In this document: positions 12,606-22,459 of the stretch, piece after piece
Numbering within the stretch: the stretch's first letter is position 1
Layout: each line of letters opens with the position of its first letter
From: Palleronia rufa
GTDB lineage: Bacteria > Pseudomonadota > Alphaproteobacteria > Rhodobacterales > Rhodobacteraceae
Reading direction: 5' to 3'
Assembly: GCF_000743715.1 (NCBI RefSeq)
Contig: NZ_JQEY01000001.1
Coordinates: forward strand, 639,665 to 703,664
DNA: 64,000 bases
Made by a program: the position numbers and the translations under genes
The notes under the pieces: generated by a model
Told to the model about the DNA's origin: nothing
What the model saw: only the letters and a program-made list of their open reading frames with translations
Databases searched by the model: none

Positions 12606-12963
12606 CGCGGGTCGTCCATGAGGGCCGTCCAGCGAATTGGTGGTTCGCGGCGCCTGTGTCGGTCAAGCATCCCTGAGGCCCTCCTGCGGATCGGCATTTT
12701 CGGAACGCCCGGCAGATCGTCGCAATGGCCATCACGCCGTTCGATCACGCTGGAACGTGTCAGTGGCTCTGCTCCGCCGTCACGGCGGCGCGCGTCCTCG
12801 CACCGCATCCGGTGCACGGTTTACGCCCCGGGGCGCCCGCTGGGAAGGGCGGCCGTCAAGCGCGAGCGGCCCGGCAGATACCTGCACCAAGGCCCTCGAA
12901 ACCGCCCGTCCCGATCAAGCGTCGCTGAACGATTTTCAGGAACCTTCCCGCACTGGAAGACTG
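12606..12963. other. Intergenic stretch, no convincing gene
   Basis: A 71-residue minus-strand frame (12602-12817) ends with TTGA overlapping the rsmB start, which resembles local gene coupling. Its translation is Arg-rich with no recognised domain, and I could not support it as a gene. Confidence 0.35.
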
Positions 12964-13050: not shown

Positions 13051-13386
13051 TTGCTGACCTTTGGCATCATTCTGGGCTGGGCGGTTCTGTCGGTTCTGTT
13101 CGCCCTCGCGGTCTTGCCGAAGGCGCATGCGACTGCGCCTCAGGCGATGCCGTTCCTTGGCGGCGGGACACCGGACACCCACGCCTGGCAGCGCTTCCAT
13201 TTCCGCCCGTACACCATGTCCCTGCTCTTCGTGGCCTTCGAGATGGAGATGATGTTCATGTATCCCTGGGCAGTCGTTTTCGTCGAAGAGGGCATAAAGG
13301 CGCTTGCCGAGATGGGCATGTTCCTGACCATCCTTTCGGTCGGAATTCTCTACGGCTGGCGCGAGGGGATCTTCCGGTGGGAATGA
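13051..13386 (+). CDS. nuoA: Complex I-like subunit A (NuoA-like)
   Basis: A 111-residue membrane protein with three predicted segments, matching NuoA. The conserved loop after segment 1 is shortened. The segment-2 motif FDvEa-FlyPWAV appears as FEMEMMFMYPWAVVF, so the usual Asp is Glu. The last helix reads EMGMFLTILSVGILYGWREG. The start is TTG at 13051, after a GCGAGG site; no ATG is available in frame before a stop. NuoA helps form the quinone-binding junction of complex I. It overlaps the next gene by 4 bp. Confidence 0.8.
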   Translation: MLTFGIILGWAVLSVLFALAVLPKAHATAPQAMPFLGGGTPDTHAWQRFHFRPYTMSLLFVAFEMEMMFMYPWAVVFVEEGIKALAEMGMFLTILSVGILYGWREGIFRWE

Positions 13387-14291
13387 TGTCGCTGTCCCGG
13401 CTGATGTCGCGCGCGCCGGCTCCCGTGTTTCCGGCCATCGGGCCGGGACGGCAAGCCGATGTGGAGCGTCTGCTCAGCCGGTCGGGCCTGCGGGCCGCCG
13501 CCACCCCGCGGGATGCGGCGATCCTGCTGGTTGCCGGCGACATTCCCGGCACGGCCGCCGCGCCTCTTGCGCGTGTCCATGACCAGATCCCCCGTCCCCG
13601 CGTTACGGTAAGTTGGGGCCACGACGAACCCGACGCGATCGCGGCACGGATCGCGGAGGCCTGGCGCGAGGTCTGTGCGGGCGGCGAAGGTGAGGGCGAC
13701 CGCCTTCCCGATGAGCCACCCAACAAATGGAAAGGCGTCGGGCCGAACGGACAGGGCGGTAAGGGCATGATGGGCGGCGTGCCCTATGGGCGACCGATGG
13801 CGATGACCGGGCCCGATATCCGAGACGGCCTGCAGCTCGACAGGTACACCGCGCGGTTCGGCCCATTCGCGCCGATGCTCCCCCCTGGGCTTGTGCTGGA
13901 GGTGACCTTGCAGGGCGACGTGATCTGCGATGTGACGGTGGAGACCCAGCCGTTCGCCCAGCCCGCCGACGCGGACGCGCCGGATCTTTGCGCGGCGCGG
14001 ATGCTGCGGCTGCTGGGCCTGGCCGGTCCCGCGGACCGTGCGACGGCCGGAAAAAAGCCGCGCGGCGTCTGGATGCGGGGCGCCGTGCCCGGCGGCCTGG
14101 GGTCCGTCGACGGTGCGGGCGACGCGCGGGACCGCCTGTCGCGCTGGCTCTCGGGCACGCCGGTTACCGCCTCGGTGCCCGACATTCCGGCGCTTCTGAA
14201 GGGGGCCGAGTGGTCCGAAGCGATGCTGATCCTCGCCTCCCTGCCGCCGTCGGCGATCCTGCGCGCCTGCCAGACGCCCGAGGCCGCATGA
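13383..14291 (+). CDS. Cysteine-poor soluble subunit, NuoB/NuoD-like remnant
   Basis: A 302-residue protein with no membrane segments, encoded where nuoB, C and D normally sit. Residues about 35-80 (RDAAILLVAGDIPGTAAAPL and ARVHDQIPRPRVTVSWG) resemble NuoB by eye, where the family reads RDADILIVsG...Yd-MPEPKwVIsmG. The four Cys that hold cluster N2 in NuoB are absent. The centre (GGKGMMGGVPYGRPMAMTGP, then LDRYTARFGPFAPMLPPGL and VLEVTLQGDVI) resembles the N-terminal part of NuoD and hydrogenase large subunits. It probably caps the membrane arm but cannot bind N2. This assignment is inference; no search was possible. Confidence 0.5.
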   Translation: MMSLSRLMSRAPAPVFPAIGPGRQADVERLLSRSGLRAAATPRDAAILLVAGDIPGTAAAPLARVHDQIPRPRVTVSWGHDEPDAIAARIAEAWREVCAGGEGEGDRLPDEPPNKWKGVGPNGQGGKGMMGGVPYGRPMAMTGPDIRDGLQLDRYTARFGPFAPMLPPGLVLEVTLQGDVICDVTVETQPFAQPADADAPDLCAARMLRLLGLAGPADRATAGKKPRGVWMRGAVPGGLGSVDGAGDARDRLSRWLSGTPVTASVPDIPALLKGAEWSEAMLILASLPPSAILRACQTPEAA

Positions 14292-15148
14292 TCGTCCTTC
14301 TCGCCCTTGTCGTTCTCGGGACCCTCCTGGTCGGAACGCTGTTTGCCGCGATGCTCGACCGGTCGCACCTGTCGATCGTCGCGTTCTTCGCACGCCAGCG
14401 GGTAGAGACCGAAGCGCCGGACCGGCTGAACAGGGATCTGGCGCCGGCATGGTATCTGACGCTCGCCGGTGCCGGTCTGTCGGTGGTGCCCTTCGCGCCC
14501 GGTCTCGCATTGATCGACAGCCCGGTCGGCATCGTGATCTGGGGGTCCTGCGAAGCGCTCGTCATCGTCACCGTCTTTCTGCACGGCTGGTCTCCGAACG
14601 CGCCGTTCCCGTTGATCGGGGCCTATCGATATGCCGCCATCGGACTGCCGGTCATGCTGCCGTCCATGTTCGTGCTGATCGCCGCGGCCCTGCCGGCCGA
14701 GAGTCTGTCGCTCATCGCCATCGTTGAGAGCCAGCGCGAGATCTGGAACGTGATCCGGCAGCCGCTGGGCCTGCCGCTTTTCCTCATCGTCGCGCTGGCG
14801 ATGACGCTGCGCGGACCGATGGATTACGCGGATGCCGCCGATATCGCCACCGGCACCTCGGCCGAGGCCAGCGGCGCGGGCCGCGCTTTGTGGCAGACGG
14901 CGCGGCTGGCGATGCTTGTGTCGGTCTCGGCCATCGCCGCGACGGTGTTCCTGGGCGGACCGTTGGGGCCGCTGCTGCCGGGGCCGGTCTGGCTATGGCT
15001 GAAGACCGCCGCGCTGATGGCGCTGATCGTGTTGCTGGGCAATCGGATCGCACGCACGACGCCCAGCCGCATGATGTGGATCCTCTGGGTCGTACTGCTG
15101 CCGCTGTCGTTCCTCCACCTGCTGATTTCGGGGCTCGTCGCGCTATGA
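14288..15148 (+). CDS. nuoH: Complex I-like subunit H (NuoH-like), divergent
   Basis: A 286-residue protein with about eight membrane segments, shorter than typical NuoH (about 320-345). The core block PFDLPEaE-ELVaGy-vEYSGm, which lines the quinone channel, appears only as a weak relic: GPMDYADAADIATGTSAEAS followed by GAGRALWQTARLAML. Most of the conserved acidic residues are therefore gone. The ATG overlaps the stop of the previous gene. By position and topology it anchors the soluble subunit to the membrane arm, but standard quinone chemistry looks doubtful. Confidence 0.65.
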   Translation: MIVLLALVVLGTLLVGTLFAAMLDRSHLSIVAFFARQRVETEAPDRLNRDLAPAWYLTLAGAGLSVVPFAPGLALIDSPVGIVIWGSCEALVIVTVFLHGWSPNAPFPLIGAYRYAAIGLPVMLPSMFVLIAAALPAESLSLIAIVESQREIWNVIRQPLGLPLFLIVALAMTLRGPMDYADAADIATGTSAEASGAGRALWQTARLAMLVSVSAIAATVFLGGPLGPLLPGPVWLWLKTAALMALIVLLGNRIARTTPSRMMWILWVVLLPLSFLHLLISGLVAL

Positions 15149-15750
15149 CGGATCTGCTGGTCGCCCTTCTCGCGGTATGTGCCGTCTGGACCGGATGGCG
15201 GGTCTTCCGCGTCGATTCTATGGTGCGCGCGACATTCTCGTTGATGCTGTCCTTCGTTGCGGTCGGTGCCATCGGGGTCTTGCTGTCCGCCCCCTATATC
15301 GGCGTCGCGACGGTTTTCATGATGGCGGTCGAGATGATGGTCATGGCCATTTTCATGGTCATGTTCATGATGAATCCCGCGGGGTTGAACCCGATGAGCA
15401 TGGTTCACCAGCACCGGGTGTCCATCGGCGCGGGCGTGCTGGCTTTTTTCGGATTGGCCGCGGCCATCCTGGTGTCGCGCCCACCGTCCAACCCGGTGGC
15501 GCCGGACGCGGATGTGGTCACCGAACTCGGCCTTGAGCTGCTCGGCCCGTCGATGCTGATCTTCGAAACCGCCGGGGTGACCTTGCTGGCCACCATGGTC
15601 GGCGCCGTGATCCTCTCCTCGCGCCAGGGTCGGTTCGGGTCCGCGGACGAAGGCTCCCGCCCCCCTGGACTGACCGAGGGCGGAGATCCCGCCGGTCAGC
15701 GTCCCGACGGCGGCGGCGGCGGACATCACCATCACGGAGGCCACGGATGA
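15145..15750 (+). CDS. nuoJ: Complex I-like subunit J (NuoJ-like) with His-rich tail
   Basis: A 201-residue protein with about five membrane helices. The family helix with its pi-bulge region is seen as APYIGVATVFMMAVEMMVMA followed by IFMVMFMMN. The C-terminal tail is soluble and ends GGGGGHHHHGGHG, which is not usual for NuoJ and could bind metal. NuoJ couples quinone-site changes to the antiporter-like subunits. It overlaps both neighbours by 4 bp. Confidence 0.75.
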   Translation: MTDLLVALLAVCAVWTGWRVFRVDSMVRATFSLMLSFVAVGAIGVLLSAPYIGVATVFMMAVEMMVMAIFMVMFMMNPAGLNPMSMVHQHRVSIGAGVLAFFGLAAAILVSRPPSNPVAPDADVVTELGLELLGPSMLIFETAGVTLLATMVGAVILSSRQGRFGSADEGSRPPGLTEGGDPAGQRPDGGGGGHHHHGGHG

Positions 15751-16052
15751 CCCTGACGATCGTGCTTCTCGGGGCTACCGCGCTTGTCGGCATCGGGCTT
15801 TACGGTGCGCTCAGCCAGCAAAGCTTCGTCATGCTGATGATGGGGCTGGAGTTGATGCTGAACGGCGCGTTGCTGGCGATCATCGGCTTCTGGTCCCTGA
15901 GCCTCGGCGGCATGCCGGAGGGCCAGCTCATGGCGATCATCGTCATGGCGGTGATGGCCGTGGAACTGGCCATCGGTTTCGCGTTGATCGTCGCGGTCTA
16001 TCGCAAGCGCCAGGCCGACGTGACCGAAAGCATAGACACCCTCAGGCAATGA
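15747..16052 (+). CDS. nuoK: Complex I-like subunit K (NuoK-like)
   Basis: A 101-residue, three-helix protein, normal NuoK length. Helix 2 holds the conserved Glu in MLMMGLELMLNGALLAIIGF and helix 3 a second Glu in MAVMAVELAIGFALIVAVYR. These two buried Glu are required for proton movement in NuoK/MrpC proteins, and both are kept here. Overlaps nuoJ and nuoL by 4 bp. Confidence 0.88.
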   Translation: MTLTIVLLGATALVGIGLYGALSQQSFVMLMMGLELMLNGALLAIIGFWSLSLGGMPEGQLMAIIVMAVMAVELAIGFALIVAVYRKRQADVTESIDTLRQ

Positions 16053-17965
16053 TCTGGGCGCTCGCATATTTCCCGGTCCTCGCCGGACTTGCCATCTGGG
16101 CGATCGGCGGCTCTCGGGCGACGCTCGGCGCGATGGGCGCGGTCGCGGCGGCGGCGACGCTTGCACTGGCGCTTGTCGCCGGAGGCGGGACCGGACGCTT
16201 CGTCTGGTCGGAACTCATCGTGCTGCAGGCCGCCCTGCCCCCGCTGGCACAGTCGGTCGCCATCCTGGTGCCCGCGATCCTGCTGCCCATCACCTTGTTC
16301 GCCACATCGCAGGAGGACACCCGCGGCCTGCCGCGGCTGGTCGGGCTGATGCTGGTCTTTACCGGCGGCATGGAACTGGTCGTCATCGCGGGTGACCTGG
16401 TGACGCTGCTGATCGGATGGGAAATCGTCGGCGCCTGCTCCTGGGCGCTGATCGGTCACAAGTGGCGCGAACAGGCTCCCGGCCCGTCGGCGAATTTCGC
16501 GTTCGTGTTGACGCGCGCGGGCGATCTGGGCCTGTTTCTCGCGGTGATGGCGACGATGGGCGCGACGGGCAGCGCCAGCTACGCGGCGCTCGGCACGCTC
16601 GACGGCGTGCCGCTGGCCCTGGCGGCGTTCGGTCTGCTTGTGGCAGCGGTGTCGAAGGCGGGCCAGGTGCCCTTCGCGCCCTGGCTGTTCCGCGCCATGG
16701 ACGGCCCCACATCGGTATCTGCCCTGCTGCATTCGGCGACCATGGTCGCGGCGGGCGCCTATATCCTTGCGCGTCTGCACCCGCAGCTGTCGGCGGCTCC
16801 CGGCTTCGGCGCGGCGGCGATTGCCGTGGGCCTCGGCACCGCGGTGCTCGGCGGTATCGTGGCGCTGCGCCAGACGCACGCCAAGAAGCTGCTGGCGGGA
16901 TCGACCTCGGCGCAGATGGGCCTGATGATCGCCACCGTCGGCGCCGGCTATCCGGGCGTCGCGGTGCTGCACCTGATCGTCCATGCCGCGACAAAGGCGG
17001 CGCTGTTCTGTGCCGCTGGCGTCGCGCATCGCGTCTCGGGCAGTTTCGACTTGCGCCGCATGGGGCTTGCCGCCTCCCTGCCCGCGGCCACCGTGCTGAC
17101 CGCCATCGCGGCGCTGTCTCTGGCCGCCGTTCCGCCGCTGTCGGGCGGCTGGAGCAAGGAGGAAATGGTCAAGGCGCTGGAACATGCCGGGCCTCTTCTG
17201 GGGGCGCTAACGATCGTCTCCGGCGGATTGAGCGCCGCCTATGCCACACGGTTCGCCGTCGCGGCCTTCGGGCCCGGCGAAACCCGCGATGCCCGCACCC
17301 GTCCGGGCGAGATGGCGGCGCTGGCGCTGCTGTCGGGCGGAGCGCTCGCGCTGTCGGCGCTGTGGCTGCCGGCCGTCAATGAGCCGGTCGCGGCATGGAT
17401 CGGGGCGGAACTGCCGTCCGGGTCGCGGATCGGCCTGATCGCATCGCTCGTCGCCGTCGCGTTCGGGGTGCTGGCGGGAGTCCATGCCGCGCGGGCAGAC
17501 AGCACCGACCCTACGCCGGAGTGGCTGGGCCTGTCCGCGCTCTACGAATACGCCGTGATCCGGCCGTTCCATGCGCTGTCGCAAACCGCCGCGGATTTCG
17601 ACGACACCACGATCGACCAGTCCGTGATCCGACCGTTCCAGGCGTTGTCGCAAACCGCCGCGGATTTCGACGACGCGACCATCGACGGCCTGGCGCCCGG
17701 CGCGGCCACCGGTGCCATGACCGGATCGGCCCGTGCCGCACGCGGTGCGATCGGCATCGCGGTGCAGGGCAGCGCAGCGCTCGCCGCGCTCGGCGCAGGA
17801 CTGGGCGAGCGGCTGAGCGATCTCATTCCCGACGGAACGGGACGGGTCACCGGGATGGCGGGGGCAGACCTGCGCCGCCTGCAGACCGGGCTTGCACATC
17901 ACTATTACACCATTCTCATGGTCGGCTTCGCGCTGGCCGTGGGATTGCTGATCTTCGGAGGCTGA
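16049..17965 (+). CDS. nuoL: Complex I-like antiporter subunit L (NuoL-like)
   Basis: A 638-residue antiporter-type subunit. The helix-5 Glu is present in LLIGWEIVGACSWALIGHKW, and helix 7 has its Lys in VAAVSKAGQVPFAPWLFRAM. The helix-8 region reads GPTSVSALLHSATMVAAGAY. The long C-terminal extension that forms the lateral helix of complex I is present and carries a 23-residue tandem duplication (VIRPFHALSQTAADFDD), then a final membrane helix, TILMVGFALAVGLLIFGG. It is one of three antiporter-like pumps in this operon. Confidence 0.88.
   Translation: MIWALAYFPVLAGLAIWAIGGSRATLGAMGAVAAAATLALALVAGGGTGRFVWSELIVLQAALPPLAQSVAILVPAILLPITLFATSQEDTRGLPRLVGLMLVFTGGMELVVIAGDLVTLLIGWEIVGACSWALIGHKWREQAPGPSANFAFVLTRAGDLGLFLAVMATMGATGSASYAALGTLDGVPLALAAFGLLVAAVSKAGQVPFAPWLFRAMDGPTSVSALLHSATMVAAGAYILARLHPQLSAAPGFGAAAIAVGLGTAVLGGIVALRQTHAKKLLAGSTSAQMGLMIATVGAGYPGVAVLHLIVHAATKAALFCAAGVAHRVSGSFDLRRMGLAASLPAATVLTAIAALSLAAVPPLSGGWSKEEMVKALEHAGPLLGALTIVSGGLSAAYATRFAVAAFGPGETRDARTRPGEMAALALLSGGALALSALWLPAVNEPVAAWIGAELPSGSRIGLIASLVAVAFGVLAGVHAARADSTDPTPEWLGLSALYEYAVIRPFHALSQTAADFDDTTIDQSVIRPFQALSQTAADFDDATIDGLAPGAATGAMTGSARAARGAIGIAVQGSAALAALGAGLGERLSDLIPDGTGRVTGMAGADLRRLQTGLAHHYYTILMVGFALAVGLLIFGG
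17555..17692 (+). repeat. 69-bp in-frame tandem duplication in nuoL
   Basis: Units 17555-17623 and 17624-17692 are near-identical; most differences are silent or conservative. They encode VIRPFHALSQTAADFDDTTI and VIRPFQALSQTAADFDDATI. Single copies of this motif are usual where NuoL passes into its lateral helix. Confidence 0.85.
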
Positions 17966-17969
17966 CCCC

Positions 17970-19442
17970 GTGCTGACACTCGCCGTTCTCATCCCGCTTT
18001 TGGCGGCTCTGGTCCTTGCCTTCGCGCCCCTGTCCGAAGCCGCGTCGCGCTGGACGGCCACCGGCGCCGCCGCGCTGTCGCTCATTGCGCTGATGGTCGT
18101 GTGGGCAGCCGGGGGTGAGGGCTTTCGCGCCGTGGCCGAGGTGCCGTGGATCCCGGCACTCGGCATTGCATGGCGCGTCGGCGTCGACGGCATGTCGCTG
18201 TCGCTGGCCCTGGTGAGCGCCCTGGTCTTCGTCGCCGCGACCGCCTGGCCGATGAAGCTGCACGACGCCCGCGCCTACTACGCCTGGATGGCCTTTCTTG
18301 CGGGCGTGTCCATCGGCCTTTTCGTCACCCTCGATCTCATCGTCTTCTACGTGTTCTTCGATCTCAGCCTGGTGGGGATGTATTTCCTCATCGGTCGCTG
18401 GGGCCACGGCGACGCGCAGCACGCGGCGCTGAAATTCTTTATCTATACGCTGGCCGGATCGCTGCTGATCCTCATCGGCATCATCGTGCTGGCGCTGAAC
18501 ATGCCGACGCTTACATTCGACATGCGCGCGATGATCGACACCCCCCCGCTGGCCGCCGCGGGGGTCGTTCCGGGGCTGGTGTTCCTGGCGTTCGTCATCG
18601 GCTTCGGCATCAAGACGCCGGTCTTTCCCGTGCACACCTGGCTGCCGCCGGCCCATGTCAACGCTCCCGGCCCCGCCTCGGCGATCCTGGCCGGGGTCCT
18701 GCTCAAGATGGGCACCTACGGGCTGATCCGCATTCCGCTGCAGATGATGCCGGAGACCTTCGCCCGCTGGGCGCTGCCCCTGGCGATCATCGGCGTCGTG
18801 TCGATCGTCTGGGGCAGCATCGTCGCCTTCGCCCAGGAGAACCTGAAGCGGCGGATCGCCTACACCTCCGTCAACCACATGGGCTACACCGTGCTCGGCA
18901 TCGCCGTCGCCGGGTCGGCCCTGGGGAGCGAGACCGCGCGGCAACTGGCCCTCACCGGCGCGGTGGTGGAGATGATCGCCCACGCGCTGATCACCGGGGC
19001 GTTGTTCCTCATCGCGGGATCGGTCTGGCAACGGGCCGAGGACTACCACCTGCCCAACTTCGGCGGGCTGGCAGGCACCGCACCGCGGCTGACCGGAGCG
19101 GCCACGCTGGCCGCGTTCGCATCGCTGGGGCTGCCGGGGCTTGCCGGCTTCGTGGCAGAGCTTCAGATCTTCGTCGGCGCATTCGGCGTCTATCCCTGGC
19201 TGGCCGTCATCGGCCTTCTTGGCATCCTGATCACCGCCGCGCTGTTCCTGCGAATGCTGCGGCAGATGTTCTTCGGCGATCTTCCGGCGGAGCGGAAGGG
19301 CTTTACGGACCTGAACCGGACAGAGACCGTGTTGCTGACCGCCCTGCTGGCGCTGGTGGTGCTGATCGGCATCTGGCCCACCTGGCTGTTGTTGCTGATC
19401 GACGCGCCGTCGCTAATCCCCGCCATCGGCGCGGGGGGCTGA
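17970..19442 (+). CDS. nuoM: Complex I-like antiporter subunit M (NuoM-like)
   Basis: A 490-residue antiporter-type subunit with about 14 helices. The helix-5 Glu of NuoM (FFE in most members) is replaced by Asp at residue 131, in [20 protein letters not shown]. The helix-7 Lys is kept in [18 protein letters not shown], as is the helix-8 Lys in [18 protein letters not shown]. The start is GTG at 17970, four bases after the nuoL stop. It should move protons in the membrane arm, possibly less efficiently. Confidence 0.87.
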
Positions 19443-19443
19443 G

Positions 19444-20835
19444 GTGCCGATTGGCGATCTGGCCCCCGAGTTGGCGGTTCTGCTGACGGCGGTGGCGATT
19501 CTGTTGCTTGCGATGGTCCTTCCGCGGCGCAGCCACCACTGGTGCGCGATCCTCGCCGCCGGCGGCCTTGGCTTGGCCATGATCATGGGCTGGAGCCAAT
19601 CCGACGCGCAGCGCCTGACTTTCTCCGGCACGCAAGCGCTGGACGGCGCGACGACATGGGCGCGGATCGTGATACCGGGGATCACGATCCTGTGCGTCGG
19701 TCTCGCGCCGCGCTGGTTTGCGACCGACCGGCGACATGGCGAGTATTACGCAATGCTGCTGTTCTCGACGCTCGGCGCGCTGGCGATGGCGGGCGCGGCG
19801 GACCTGATGCAACTGGTGCTGGCGGTCCTGCTGTCGTCGGTCACGGGATACGTCCTGGCCGCCTACCACCGCGACTGGGCCATATCGCTTGAGGCGGGGA
19901 TGAAGTATTTCCTGGTCGGCGCGCTGGCCAATGCGATCCTGGTGATCGGCGTCATCCTGGTGATGGGCATGGCGGGCAGCTCCGATTACGGCGAACTTGC
20001 CGGCTCGATCCCGAACGATCCCCTTGCCCTCACCGGGCTGGCCCTCATCCTCATAGCGCTGTTCTTCAAGCTGGGGGCCGTTCCGGGCCATACCTGGGTT
20101 CCCGATGTGGCAGAGGGCGCGCCCGTGCCCGCCGCCGCCTTCCTGACCGTGATCCCCAAGCTGGCCGCGGCGGTGGCGCTCTACCGGCTGGTCGCCCTGG
20201 CGCCGGGGGTGGAGGCGCTGCCGCTTCTCATCGCGCTCGCCTCCGCCGCGACCATGACGCTCGGCAATCTCTGCGCGCTCTGGCAGGACGACGTGCGCCG
20301 CCTGGTCGGCTGGTCGTCGGTCAGCCAGAGCGGCTACGCCCTGATGGCCGTGGCGGCGGCGGGCGCGGTGCCCGAGGCGCTGCCGGCCCTGCTCGGCTTC
20401 ATGACCGTCTACGGCATCGCCAATCTCGTCGCCTTCTCGGTGGTTGCGGATCTGCGCGGGCGCACGGCCATCTCCGGCTACAACGGCTTGCTGCCCGCGC
20501 AACCCGTTGCCGCCGCCGCGCTGGCGCTGGCCTTTCTGTCGTTTGCCGGCATCCCGCCGCTGGCCGGATTTCTCGGCAAGTTCGCGCTCTTCTCCGCGAC
20601 CCTCGACGCCGGTCTGGCCTGGCTCGCCATCGTCGCCGTCGCCAATACGGTGCTGTCGCTGTTCTACTACCTGCGCGTCATCGGTCCGGCGTTCTTTTCG
20701 CAGCCGCACGACGGGATCGGGACCCTCGGCGGCAGCGCGCGCGCGGTCCTGTGGCTGTCGGTCGCCATCCTGATCGCGATGACCTTCCTGTGGTCGCCGA
20801 TCTGGTCCGCCCTCCCGGCCGATCTGCTGCCCTAG
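19444..20835 (+). CDS. nuoN: Complex I-like antiporter subunit N (NuoN-like)
   Basis: A 463-residue antiporter-type subunit starting at GTG 19444. The helix-5 segment that normally reads LxLELqsLxLYVLaA is [20 protein letters not shown], so the conserved Glu is Leu at residue 129 by eye alignment. The helix-7 Lys remains ([17 protein letters not shown]) and so does the helix-8 Lys ([18 protein letters not shown]). The stop codon TAG at 20833-20835 is made of the TA target of an IS630 insertion plus the first base of that element. The sequence after the element would also restore a TAG. Confidence 0.85.
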
Positions 20836-21770
20836 AGCATGATGAGATAAGCTTGAAGCGTATCCAGTATTGGCGAGGTAATTCGCGCACTCCTGTGGGC
20901 TGAAGCGGTCGAGCAGTGTCCCGATCCTGCGCCACGTTGCCTCCATTGTGCGCTCGGCTGCGTTGCGGAGCATGTGTTTGAGCTTCGAGAAGACCTGTTC
21001 AATCGGGTTCAGGTCGGGGCTGTAGGGCGGCAGAAAAAGTAGATGCGCTTTCGCGTTACGGATCGCCTGCCGCACGGCTTGCCCTTTGTGGCTGCCCAGA
21101 TTGTCCATAACCACCACATCGCCCGGGCGCAGGGTTGGGACGAGCACGTGCGCGACATAAGCCCGGAACGCTTCGCCGTTGACGGGACCGTCCAAAACAA
21201 AGGGCGCGTCGATCCGATCATGACGCAGCGCTGCGATAAAGGTCATGGTGCGCCAGTGACCATGCGGGGCCCGCCCGATCAGGCGTTCACCTCTGGGAGC
21301 CCAGCCGCGCAGCGGGGCCATGTTGGTCTTGGCCCAGGTTTCATCAATGAACACGAGACGACGGGGGTCGATCCGGCCCTGGTGCCGCTTCCAGCGCACA
21401 CGGCGGCGGCTCACGTCGGGGCGGTTCTGCTCCTCGGCGAGTTGGGTCTTTTTTTGAACGAGTAGCCCGTGCGGCGCACGAAGGCCCAGACGGTGCGGTA
21501 GTCGACCTTGAGCCCGCGCTCGGCCAGTTCCACCACCAGTCCGCGCAGTGTGAACGGCTCCGTTATCCGCTCCAGAAGCCACGCCTCATGCCCGCCTGCA
21601 ATCTTGCGTGGCGGGTGGCCGCCTGTCCCTGCCGGAGCGCAACTCCCGGTCGCACGCAAACGCTGCGACCACTTCACAACACTGGACGGAGCCACATCCA
21701 GGGCCGCTGCGACCTGACGCACGCTCTCGCCCCCCAACAGCCGCGCCATTGCCCTCTCTCGAAGGTCCAT
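20835..21770 (-). CDS. IS630 transposase in two frames (A7 slippage)
   Basis: The first frame starts at ATG 21770 ([20 protein letters not shown]) and carries the helix-turn-helix DNA-binding half, ending at 21411. A run of seven A on the minus strand (21455-21449, in GGYSFKKK) allows a -1 shift into the catalytic frame. That frame has [31 protein letters not shown] and [20 protein letters not shown], the DDE set of the family. The second frame has no stop inside the element and would run on antisense through nuoN and into nuoM as far as 19303. The enzyme may still be functional if slippage occurs. Confidence 0.75.
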
Positions 21771-21880
21771 TGAAAGTGCTCTACCCACTACTCGCCCTCC
21801 ATCTTGTGGTCGGCAACAGTGAATCACCAAAATGCAGGCCTGTGAATCCTCTATCGATTCAGGCTGATTTCATCCCGCTC
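20835..21880 (-). mobile_element. IS630-family insertion sequence, copy A
   Basis: A 1,046-bp element flanked by TA on both sides (20833-20834 and 21881-21882), the standard IS630/Tc1 target duplication. The left end reads GAGCATGATGAGATAAG and the right end, inverted, GAGCGGGATGAAATCAG. It sits exactly at the nuoN stop codon and beside an older IS5-family remnant. Confidence 0.85.
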
Positions 21881-21882
21881 TA

Positions 21883-22459
21883 GGGTGCGCTTTCGGTCCA
21901 GCTTCGGGACAACGGTTGACGGCAGACGCGGCTTCGCGTCGGCAGATGGGCGGTGCCGCCGCGGGCCGCGACACGCGCGACCGGAGCAAGCCTGTCGTTG
22001 CCGCGATCCGCGGCCACGGCGGCGGGCGGCAGCGGGTCGAGCAGGATCGGGGCCGTGGTCTTGCCGAAGGCCCGGCCGGCGCGATGCCCATCCAGCCGTC
22101 GTGGATCTTCGTGCTCAATCCGCCACGGGACCGGCCGACGGCGAGATCCTCGCCCGCTTATTTCGGCCCGAGGCGTGCTGGCGGGCGCGGACGATGGACC
22201 TGTCGATCAACCGCAGTGACCGCCGCGAGCGCCGGGCCAAGTCCTCGAACACGTTCAGACGGATAGCGCGCCTGGCCCGGCAATCGAAGCGGTTGTCCCA
22301 TGATGAGGGGACCGTAGCGGTCCGGCAGGTCGCGCCACGGCGCCCCGGTGCGCCGCACGTGGAAGATCCCGTTCACCGCCGGCCGATCGTCGTCCCGCCG
22401 CGTGCCCATGGCCTGCTTTGGCAACGCCACGCCTCGTCGGTCGGATCGTATCGCGTCAT
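21883..22459 (-). pseudogene. Decayed IS5-family transposase
   Basis: Starting at ATG 22459 the minus strand reads MTRYDPTDEAW. After shifts of frame it continues VNGIFHVRRTGAPWRDLPDR, and nearer 22000 PLPPAAVAADRGNDRLAPVA. These match in order the N terminus, the RTGAPWRDLP motif and the DRGYD region of IS5/IS427-type transposases. At least two frameshifts and a stop separate the parts. IS630 copy A lies immediately next to its 3' end. Confidence 0.75.

Follow-up and report, generated by a model that had tools for sequence, protein, structure and literature searches.

A complex I-derived operon of Palleronia rufa with a NuoB–NuoD-like protein and a methionine-rich NuoJ: a candidate soft-metal antiporter

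What does the membrane arm of respiratory complex I do in an operon that lacks the subunits for electron input? This question is raised by eight open reading frames (ORFs) at 13051-20835 of a 64,000-nucleotide stretch of the Palleronia rufa genome (contig NZ_JQEY01000001.1, positions 639,665 to 703,664, forward strand; the whole stretch is hereafter the window). On the plus strand of the window, nuoA, nuoH, nuoJ, nuoK, nuoL, nuoM and nuoN overlap or abut one another, with one soluble gene, here called X, between nuoA and nuoH. A preliminary description of this DNA had offered two guesses, a proton or sodium pump powered by an unknown donor and a secondary transporter built from complex I parts, of which the second proved the better. 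Our own reading, to which we give about as much credence as doubt, is that the operon encodes a non-redox ion/proton antiporter derived from complex I, which would handle a soft metal ion, most likely Cu(I), and would probably export it; transport itself, the substrate and the direction are what we infer. The parts of this reading differ in strength: the operon is very likely non-redox, the family is likely linked to metal, and the export of Cu(I) by proton antiport is plausible from the sequences.

A second nuo operon without an electron-input module

The products NuoA, H, J, K, L, M and N of the operon all scored over the Pfam cut-offs. In a tblastn search with E. coli proteins at E 1e-4, NuoH, J, K, L, M and N matched in the window, and NuoCD, E, F, G and I gave no match there. 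The tightly overlapped arrangement and the membrane arm without an electron-input module, both noted in the preliminary description, thus stand. The P. rufa genome (3.85 Mb in 33 contigs) also contains the canonical nuo operon that the same description had advised looking for. It lies on the same contig, approximately 480 kb from the operon of the window (C1:154701-174700), matches E. coli NuoCD, E, F, G, H, I, J, K, L, M and N, and includes NuoD at C1:171005 and NuoB at C1:174175. Because a separate canonical operon is present in the same genome, the operon of the window represents a second system, and the possibility that it is the only complex I of this genome was rejected. An assembly gap hiding nuoB, nuoC, nuoD or nuoI was likewise rejected, since the genes overlap and their order is kept in relatives.

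Compared with two relatives, all eight genes showed non-synonymous divergence (dN) of 0.06-0.25 at synonymous divergence (dS) of 0.49-1.07; the operon is under purifying selection and is maintained, not decaying. A decaying relic of complex I would agree with the broken copy found in Martelella and an apparently broken one in Pseudarthrobacter, but purifying selection acts on all eight genes, the gene order is kept across phyla and new conserved residues have been gained, making this explanation scarcely credible.

Gene X and the quinone site

The soluble gene X (13386..14291, 301 aa) was recognized in the preliminary description, which missed its origin in NuoB and NuoD. Residues 30-78 (13473..13619) constitute a NuoB remnant, which matched the NCBIfam NuoB model at E 8e-6, under the family's own cut-off, and mitochondrial PSST chains in the Protein Data Bank (PDB) at E 1e-4. 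In the profile comparison by hhalign, X gave a 96.7% probability against NuoB, while five controls gave <1%. The remnant ends where the cysteine motif SMGSC of NuoB would start, this place being occupied by SWGHD, and the NuoB cysteines that bind the N2 cluster were not found in X. Energy-converting hydrogenases and Ehr complexes are members of the complex I superfamily with altered NuoB/NuoD homologues; X differs from these in that no cysteine is invariant across 15 homologues, C202 being invariant in the eight window-type sequences.

The NuoB remnant is followed by a glycine- and methionine-rich linker with GPNGQGGKGMMGGVPYGRPMAMTG (13707..13835), in which Met 128, 129, 138 and 140 are invariant in 8/8 window-type sequences, and then by a hairpin, GPFAPMLPPGLVLEVTLQGDVI (13833..13955), that aligns to the start of NuoD. 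In a shuffle test, the hairpin of the window X gave p 0.0075 against the NuoD of its own genome and 0.51 against E. coli NuoD. The corresponding values for homologue G566, at the same NuoD position, were <0.0005 and 0.02, and several other relatives were not significant; the segments taken for Paracoccus and Thioclava were not the hairpin. If the hairpin alignment is right, X carries GPFAP where NuoD has GPQHP, and the quinone histidine is replaced. The X proteins of Thioclava and Halomonas matched Complex1_49kDa (PF00346) over the cut-off, at E 7.1e-13 and E 2.7e-7, respectively, and the window X aligns with that of Halomonas along its full length at 36% identity. Because of the NuoB remnant, these NuoD matches and this alignment, X is best read as a fused, disarmed NuoB–NuoD, of which the NuoB half is firm and the NuoD half rests mainly on the relatives; B and D would then be present in the operon in disarmed form.

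The linker of the window X occupies the place of metal-binding segments in relatives, namely, five HMBD copies in Thioclava X (E 1.3e-75) and His/Met-rich runs in Mycobacterium avium, Rhodococcus, Arthrobacter, Pseudonocardia and Curtobacterium. Nearly all family members whose sequences were examined carry His/Met-rich or HMBD segments in X or in NuoJ.

For the membrane subunits, residue tables were made from 22 family sequences, in E. coli numbering, with the letters checked against the E. coli sequence. The tables leave out G272 (contig edge), G566, G591, G597, G674, the second Roseivivax plasmid and the Martelella, Pseudarthrobacter, Gordonia and Sulfitobacter copies, and their canonical rows are few (E. 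coli and the own genome, with S. meliloti for NuoH only and the own NuoN left out). The NuoH-like subunit (14288..15148, 286 aa; PF00146 E 3.5e-41) lacks the QxRxGPNxxG quinone loop, which is absent from 22/22 aligned family rows (by eye); where the preliminary description had seen weak quinone motifs, the loop of NuoH is gone altogether. The position of the metal-binding segments, between the NuoB and NuoD parts and close to the former N2 site, might be expected if the operon encoded a redox pump with bound copper, in place of the N2 cluster, carrying electrons to a modified quinone site. Such a pump is very improbable, however, with the NuoH loop absent, the NuoD histidine replaced and no electron-donor subunit encoded in the operon. 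The other guess of the preliminary description, a pump with an unknown donor, is unsupported, because every cofactor or quinone motif that was looked for is gone.

Membrane subunits and the Mrp-type coupling point

Most proton-path residues of NuoL, NuoM and NuoN and both of those of NuoK are retained in the aligned sequences. The NuoL-like antiporter subunit (16049..17965, 638 aa; PF00361 E 9e-50) keeps its key residues, with E144, D178, K229, H254 and K342 present in 22/22 and K399 in 20/22. In the NuoM-like antiporter subunit (17970..19442, 490 aa; TIGR01972 450.6 bits, over cut-off), K234, K265, H322 and E407 are present in 22/22, and E144 is conserved as D or E. The NuoN-like antiporter subunit (19444..20835, 463 aa; TIGR01770 E 1.8e-92) keeps K158, K247 and K395 in 22/22 and K217 in 18/22, but the equivalent of E133 in the fifth transmembrane helix (TM5) is lost in 22/22. 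Both E36 and E72 of the NuoK-like subunit (15747..16052; PF00420 E 1.2e-17) are kept in all 22 sequences. NuoH keeps R148 in 22/22 and E228 in 20/22, and has lost E216 and E218 in 22/22 and E157 in 16/22. The proton-path Glu and Lys residues of the complex I membrane subunits are thus present except for NuoN E133, NuoJ Y59 and part of NuoH. The NuoA-like subunit (13051..13386, 111 aa; PF00507 E 6.9e-22) has a TTG start and the motif FEMEMMFMYPWA. A near-perfect tandem repeat, IRPFxALSQTAADFDDxTID x2, was observed in the C-terminal part of NuoL.

NuoJ (15145..15750, 201 aa; PF00499 E 1.4e-18) is, judged by its sequence, the most changed subunit of the operon. Methionine occupies positions 26, 59, 60, 64, 67, 71, 75, 76, 84 and 137 in 20-22/22 family sequences and in 0/16 canonical ones (the 14 of 16 loci that yielded a NuoJ, plus E. 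coli and the own genome); the seven of these that lie in TM3 (59, 60, 64, 67, 71, 75 and 76) are Met in at least 20/22. The first 160 residues contain 15-19 methionines in the family versus 5-9 in canonical NuoJ. TM3 of the window copy is methionine-rich at residues 59-76 (15319..15372), with Met60 at the place of Tyr59, a position that is Met in 20/22 family sequences. On the helix, methionines 60, 64, 67, 71 and 75 lie inside an arc of 80 degrees. NuoK is also Met-rich, at 8-10% in the family versus 4-5% in two canonical sequences, and no Met enrichment was found in NuoH, L, M and N of the family. Window-type NuoJ additionally carries a His-rich C-terminal tail (GGGGGHHHHGGHG; 15709..15747), and two X-less members (L098 and L100) have a His/Met-rich insert inside NuoJ, as though the NuoB–NuoD scaffold were less important than the metal site.

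The remodelled residues lie where the Mrp Na+(K+)/H+ antiporters are described to bind their cation (PMC7419157). This place is enclosed by Glu706, which corresponds to NuoJ Y59, by the NuoK-like subunit and by the Glu in TM5 of MrpD. The NuoN Glu133 would be the equivalent of this MrpD residue. Mrp is non-redox, as the operon of the window very likely is, and its antiporter subunits are joined to a NuoJ/NuoK-like module with the transported cation. Unlike Mrp, the operon has NuoA, NuoH, X, three antiporter subunits and a separate NuoJ, and it lacks MrpE, MrpF and MrpG, so that the mrpA-G gene set with its fused MrpA is not what is found. The cation site also differs, the Glu706 position being Met in 20/22 and the NuoN Glu being lost in 22/22. 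In comparison with respiratory complex I, the likeness lies in the seven membrane subunits, the antiporter Lys and Glu residues, the NuoK Glu pair and the NuoB (and NuoD) ancestry of X; the differences are the absence of NuoC, E, F, G and I, of the N2 cysteines and of the quinone loop, and the replacement of NuoJ Tyr59 and NuoN Glu133 in the family. The system therefore belongs to the complex I superfamily without the redox features that define complex I, and it is not Mrp by gene set or cation site; it is probably Mrp-like in its working, with a soft metal replacing Na+. An antiporter for a soft metal ion is proposed mainly because the residues remodelled are those of the Mrp-type coupling point.

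The same metal-binding signatures would suit a copper-gated proton valve or sensor, in which metal on X and NuoJ opens or closes proton flow and is not transported. No sign of a continuous metal path was obtained, the test for a one-face stripe of TM3 methionines being weak (p 0.07), but methionines conserved along a membrane helix fit transport better, and we hold a valve or sensor to be quite unlikely.

An operon of this gene content has been described in actinobacteria as 'partial NDH-1 operon 2' or nuoAHJKLMN, and in the passages of these papers that concern it (Penn and Jensen 2012, PMC3314556; Ian 2014, PMC4018334; Sun 2018, PMC6002675; Almeida 2019, PMC6676996), it is interpreted as pumping protons or sodium, an adaptation of Salinispora, Streptomyces and Kocuria to marine or osmotic conditions. 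Almeida (2019) gives the order as nuoA, a hypothetical protein and then nuoH, J, K, L, M and N, the hypothetical gene being left unassigned there. By gene order, this is the arrangement of the window, with the same seven nuo genes and the hypothetical gene in the place of X; horizontal spread is also common to both, the next clades being proteobacterial in PMC3314556. The published reading differs in concerning salt and in assigning no role to metal, as far as these passages go. In open-access text, we found no paper giving the operon a copper role or identifying the hypothetical gene: the word 'copper' has 0 occurrences in PMC3314556 and PMC4018334, and no copper role for the operon was found in passages of PMC7558416, PMC6305408 and PMC8795404.

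A secondary Na+/H+ (or proton) pump that adapts the cell to salt or osmotic conditions has this literature on its side, together with the marine origin of several carriers in the present set and the kinship with Mrp. However, the Mrp cation-site residue is Met in NuoJ (20/22) and the NuoN TM5 Glu is lost (22/22), the metal-binding segments and copper neighbours are left unexplained, and carriers also come from soil, sediment and sputum. Moreover, among the published carriers are Streptomyces albidoflavus SM254, which comes from copper-rich mine fluid, and the copper mine isolate Kocuria marina SO9-6 (PMC6002675), in both of which the operon is explained, in the passages concerned, as osmotic or hyperosmotic adaptation. 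We thus regard a salt pump as a doubtful explanation for this family.

Distribution, copper genes and meaning of the family

Full window-type X was found in 5/295 genomes of the family to which P. rufa belongs, its own included, most other matches proving, from their position and length, to be canonical NuoB. The species collection supplied four named loci (Palleronia salina, P. pelagia, Histidinibacterium aquaticum and an uncultured Rhodobacteraceae). The eight genes A-X-H-J-K-L-M-N stand in this order without a gap in 7/8 relatives examined, the eighth stopping at a contig edge, so that the arrangement recurs in other Rhodobacterales, as the preliminary description had proposed to check; the contig mapping of two Palleronia genomes (G678-type) was deduced from coordinates. 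Plasmid copies were detected in Roseivivax, Acuticoccus, Halomonas and, in broken form, Martelella. The wider set obtained via NuoH includes Paracoccus, Thioclava, Sulfitobacter and Nitratireductor among Proteobacteria, and Mycobacterium, Rhodococcus, Gordonia, Arthrobacter, Pseudarthrobacter, Pseudonocardia and Curtobacterium among Actinomycetota; in Methylobacterium and Rhodopseudomonas, the seven nuo genes occur but X is missing. The family spans Alpha- and Gammaproteobacteria and Actinomycetota and is often plasmid-borne.

The family NuoH profile picked out 9/398 Pseudomonadota genomes, P. rufa among them, which score at least 314 bits, ahead of a next-best score of 232; the eleven next-ranked NuoH loci group with canonical NuoH in the tree, and lower-scoring family members may exist. 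In the NuoH tree, in which the canonical rows are proteobacterial only and long branches were flagged, 26 family rows split from 19 canonical rows with support of 100/98, and the window type forms one clade of 11 with support of 100/99. The Actinomycetota copies of the present set fall within the same NuoH clan as that of the window. No solved structure of the family was found in the PDB, the best match to the NuoH profile being E. coli NuoH (230 bits).

Several further features were observed around these copies. In Martelella (L082), the operon is cut after the start of X and a transposase comes next; in the apparently broken Pseudarthrobacter copy (L105), a transposase follows a shortened X. 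The Halomonas group (L081, L085, L086 and L087) has the ergothioneine gene egtB after nuoN, accompanied by egtD, whole or in pieces, wherever the available stretch extends far enough. Three distant carriers (L080, L082 and L105) have a gene for an ion or potassium channel a short way upstream of nuoA, and a relative of this gene occurs approximately 7 kb beyond nuoN in L084. In Paracoccus and Sulfitobacter (L094 and L109), a separate piece annotated 'proton-conducting transporter membrane subunit' is located approximately 3 kb before nuoA.

Linkage to copper genes was assessed with two models, copper P-type ATPase (TIGR01511, over cut-off) and multicopper oxidase (PF07732), leaving out Vreelandella L083 (fragmentary annotation). 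At least one of these genes lies within 15 kb of the operon in 7/12 genomes versus 0.61 expected (P 3e-7), and after near-duplicates were collapsed (G597/G674; two Palleronia), in 6/10 genomes versus 0.53 expected (P 3e-6). Among plasmids, 20 records were examined and 19 counted, with second-tier matches (H5, H6, e.g. H24-H27, H29, H41, H44) left out; 10/19 records have such a gene within 5 kb versus 4.18 expected (P 0.001), under a null that is strict because the plasmids' own copper genes were kept in it. Regulators of the CueR type are encoded no more than 1.5 kb from the operon in G152 and G288; in Roseivivax, Acuticoccus and Martelella, they are adjacent to it or in its vicinity. The G177 copy has the gene of a heavy-metal-associated protein as its neighbour. 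The preliminary description, although partly supported, had missed these copper-resistance neighbours of many relatives and the metal-binding segments of the family.

The window copy itself is flanked by recA, a histidine kinase gene and RsmB on one side, and by a transposase and a rhodanese-domain protein on the other, with neither of the two tested copper genes adjacent; the copper ATPase of P. rufa, with CueR, is on a separate 4.8-kb contig. The copper link of the window copy is thus by family only: membership in copper-resistance islands is seen family-wide, as linkage beyond chance, but not for this copy. The transposase (20959-21830, minus strand) comes within approximately 125 bp after the operon and has a DDE_3 domain at approximately 20959-21360 (E 3.2e-34) and a second-frame ORF at 21414-21830 without a Pfam match. 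This element has 21 full-length copies in the genome, and the 4.8-kb contig terminates in 336 bp that are identical to window 21548-21883. At 12944-12959, 107 bp upstream of nuoA, the 16-nt dyad CTTCCCGCACTGGAAG resembles CueR-type boxes such as those before the copper ATPases of two relatives; it is one base shorter than the two copper boxes of the own genome and lacks TTGACC. We did not use this dyad as evidence; it was found before one of 29 operons scanned and was absent before the 28 others, and a relaxed pattern occurs three times in the 64 kb.

A number of observations weigh against the proposed copper antiporter, besides the weak stripe in TM3. In addition to the window copy, those of G177, L033 and L034 have none of the tested copper genes around them within the stretches examined. 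No linkage was seen in 5/12 genomes, nor in 9/19 plasmids when the limit was 5 kb and 8/19 when it was 15 kb; at the wider limit, the excess among plasmids is smaller (11/19 versus 6.72 expected, P 0.017), and all of these counts take related records as independent. The boxes TTGACCTTCC...GGAA of the own genome's copper ATPase are absent from the window operon. The linker of the window X has methionine but neither HMBD nor a His run, the NuoD homology of this X is weak (its C-terminal part gave 0.8% against the NuoD profile by hhalign), and its AlphaFold model, made with five sequences, has a mean pLDDT of 36.5. The 16 canonical NuoJ sequences are all proteobacterial, and many are enterobacterial. 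Finally, in the passage concerned of PMC6002675, the nuo genes of Kocuria flava lie in a region apart from the copD/czcD cluster.

If the operon encodes a copper antiporter, X would dock on NuoH and NuoA at the docking place of the Q module and would collect metal from the cytoplasm. The metal would then pass the methionine-rich junction of NuoA, NuoJ and NuoK, the equivalent of the place that holds the cation in Mrp. Inward movement of protons via NuoL, NuoM and NuoN would drive the metal out, with several protons per metal ion, much as Na+ is expelled by Mrp.

We tentatively propose, with somewhat more doubt than confidence, that with these operons the complex I superfamily gains a new functional class, in which the redox module has become a metal-binding protein and the coupling site a methionine site. 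Its members would use many protons to export Cu(I) and would have been carried across phyla by plasmids, under the annotation of NADH dehydrogenase. If this is true, the driving partner of complex I would have been swapped from electrons to a metal ion with the proton-moving arm kept, and the coupling of events near NuoB, NuoD, NuoH and NuoJ to the distant antiporter subunits, a long-standing question, could be tested in a natural redox-free complex with a titratable metal. It would also correct both the annotation of the operon as NADH dehydrogenase and its published explanation by salt adaptation, and copper resistance would have a further type of machine next to P-type ATPases and RND pumps.

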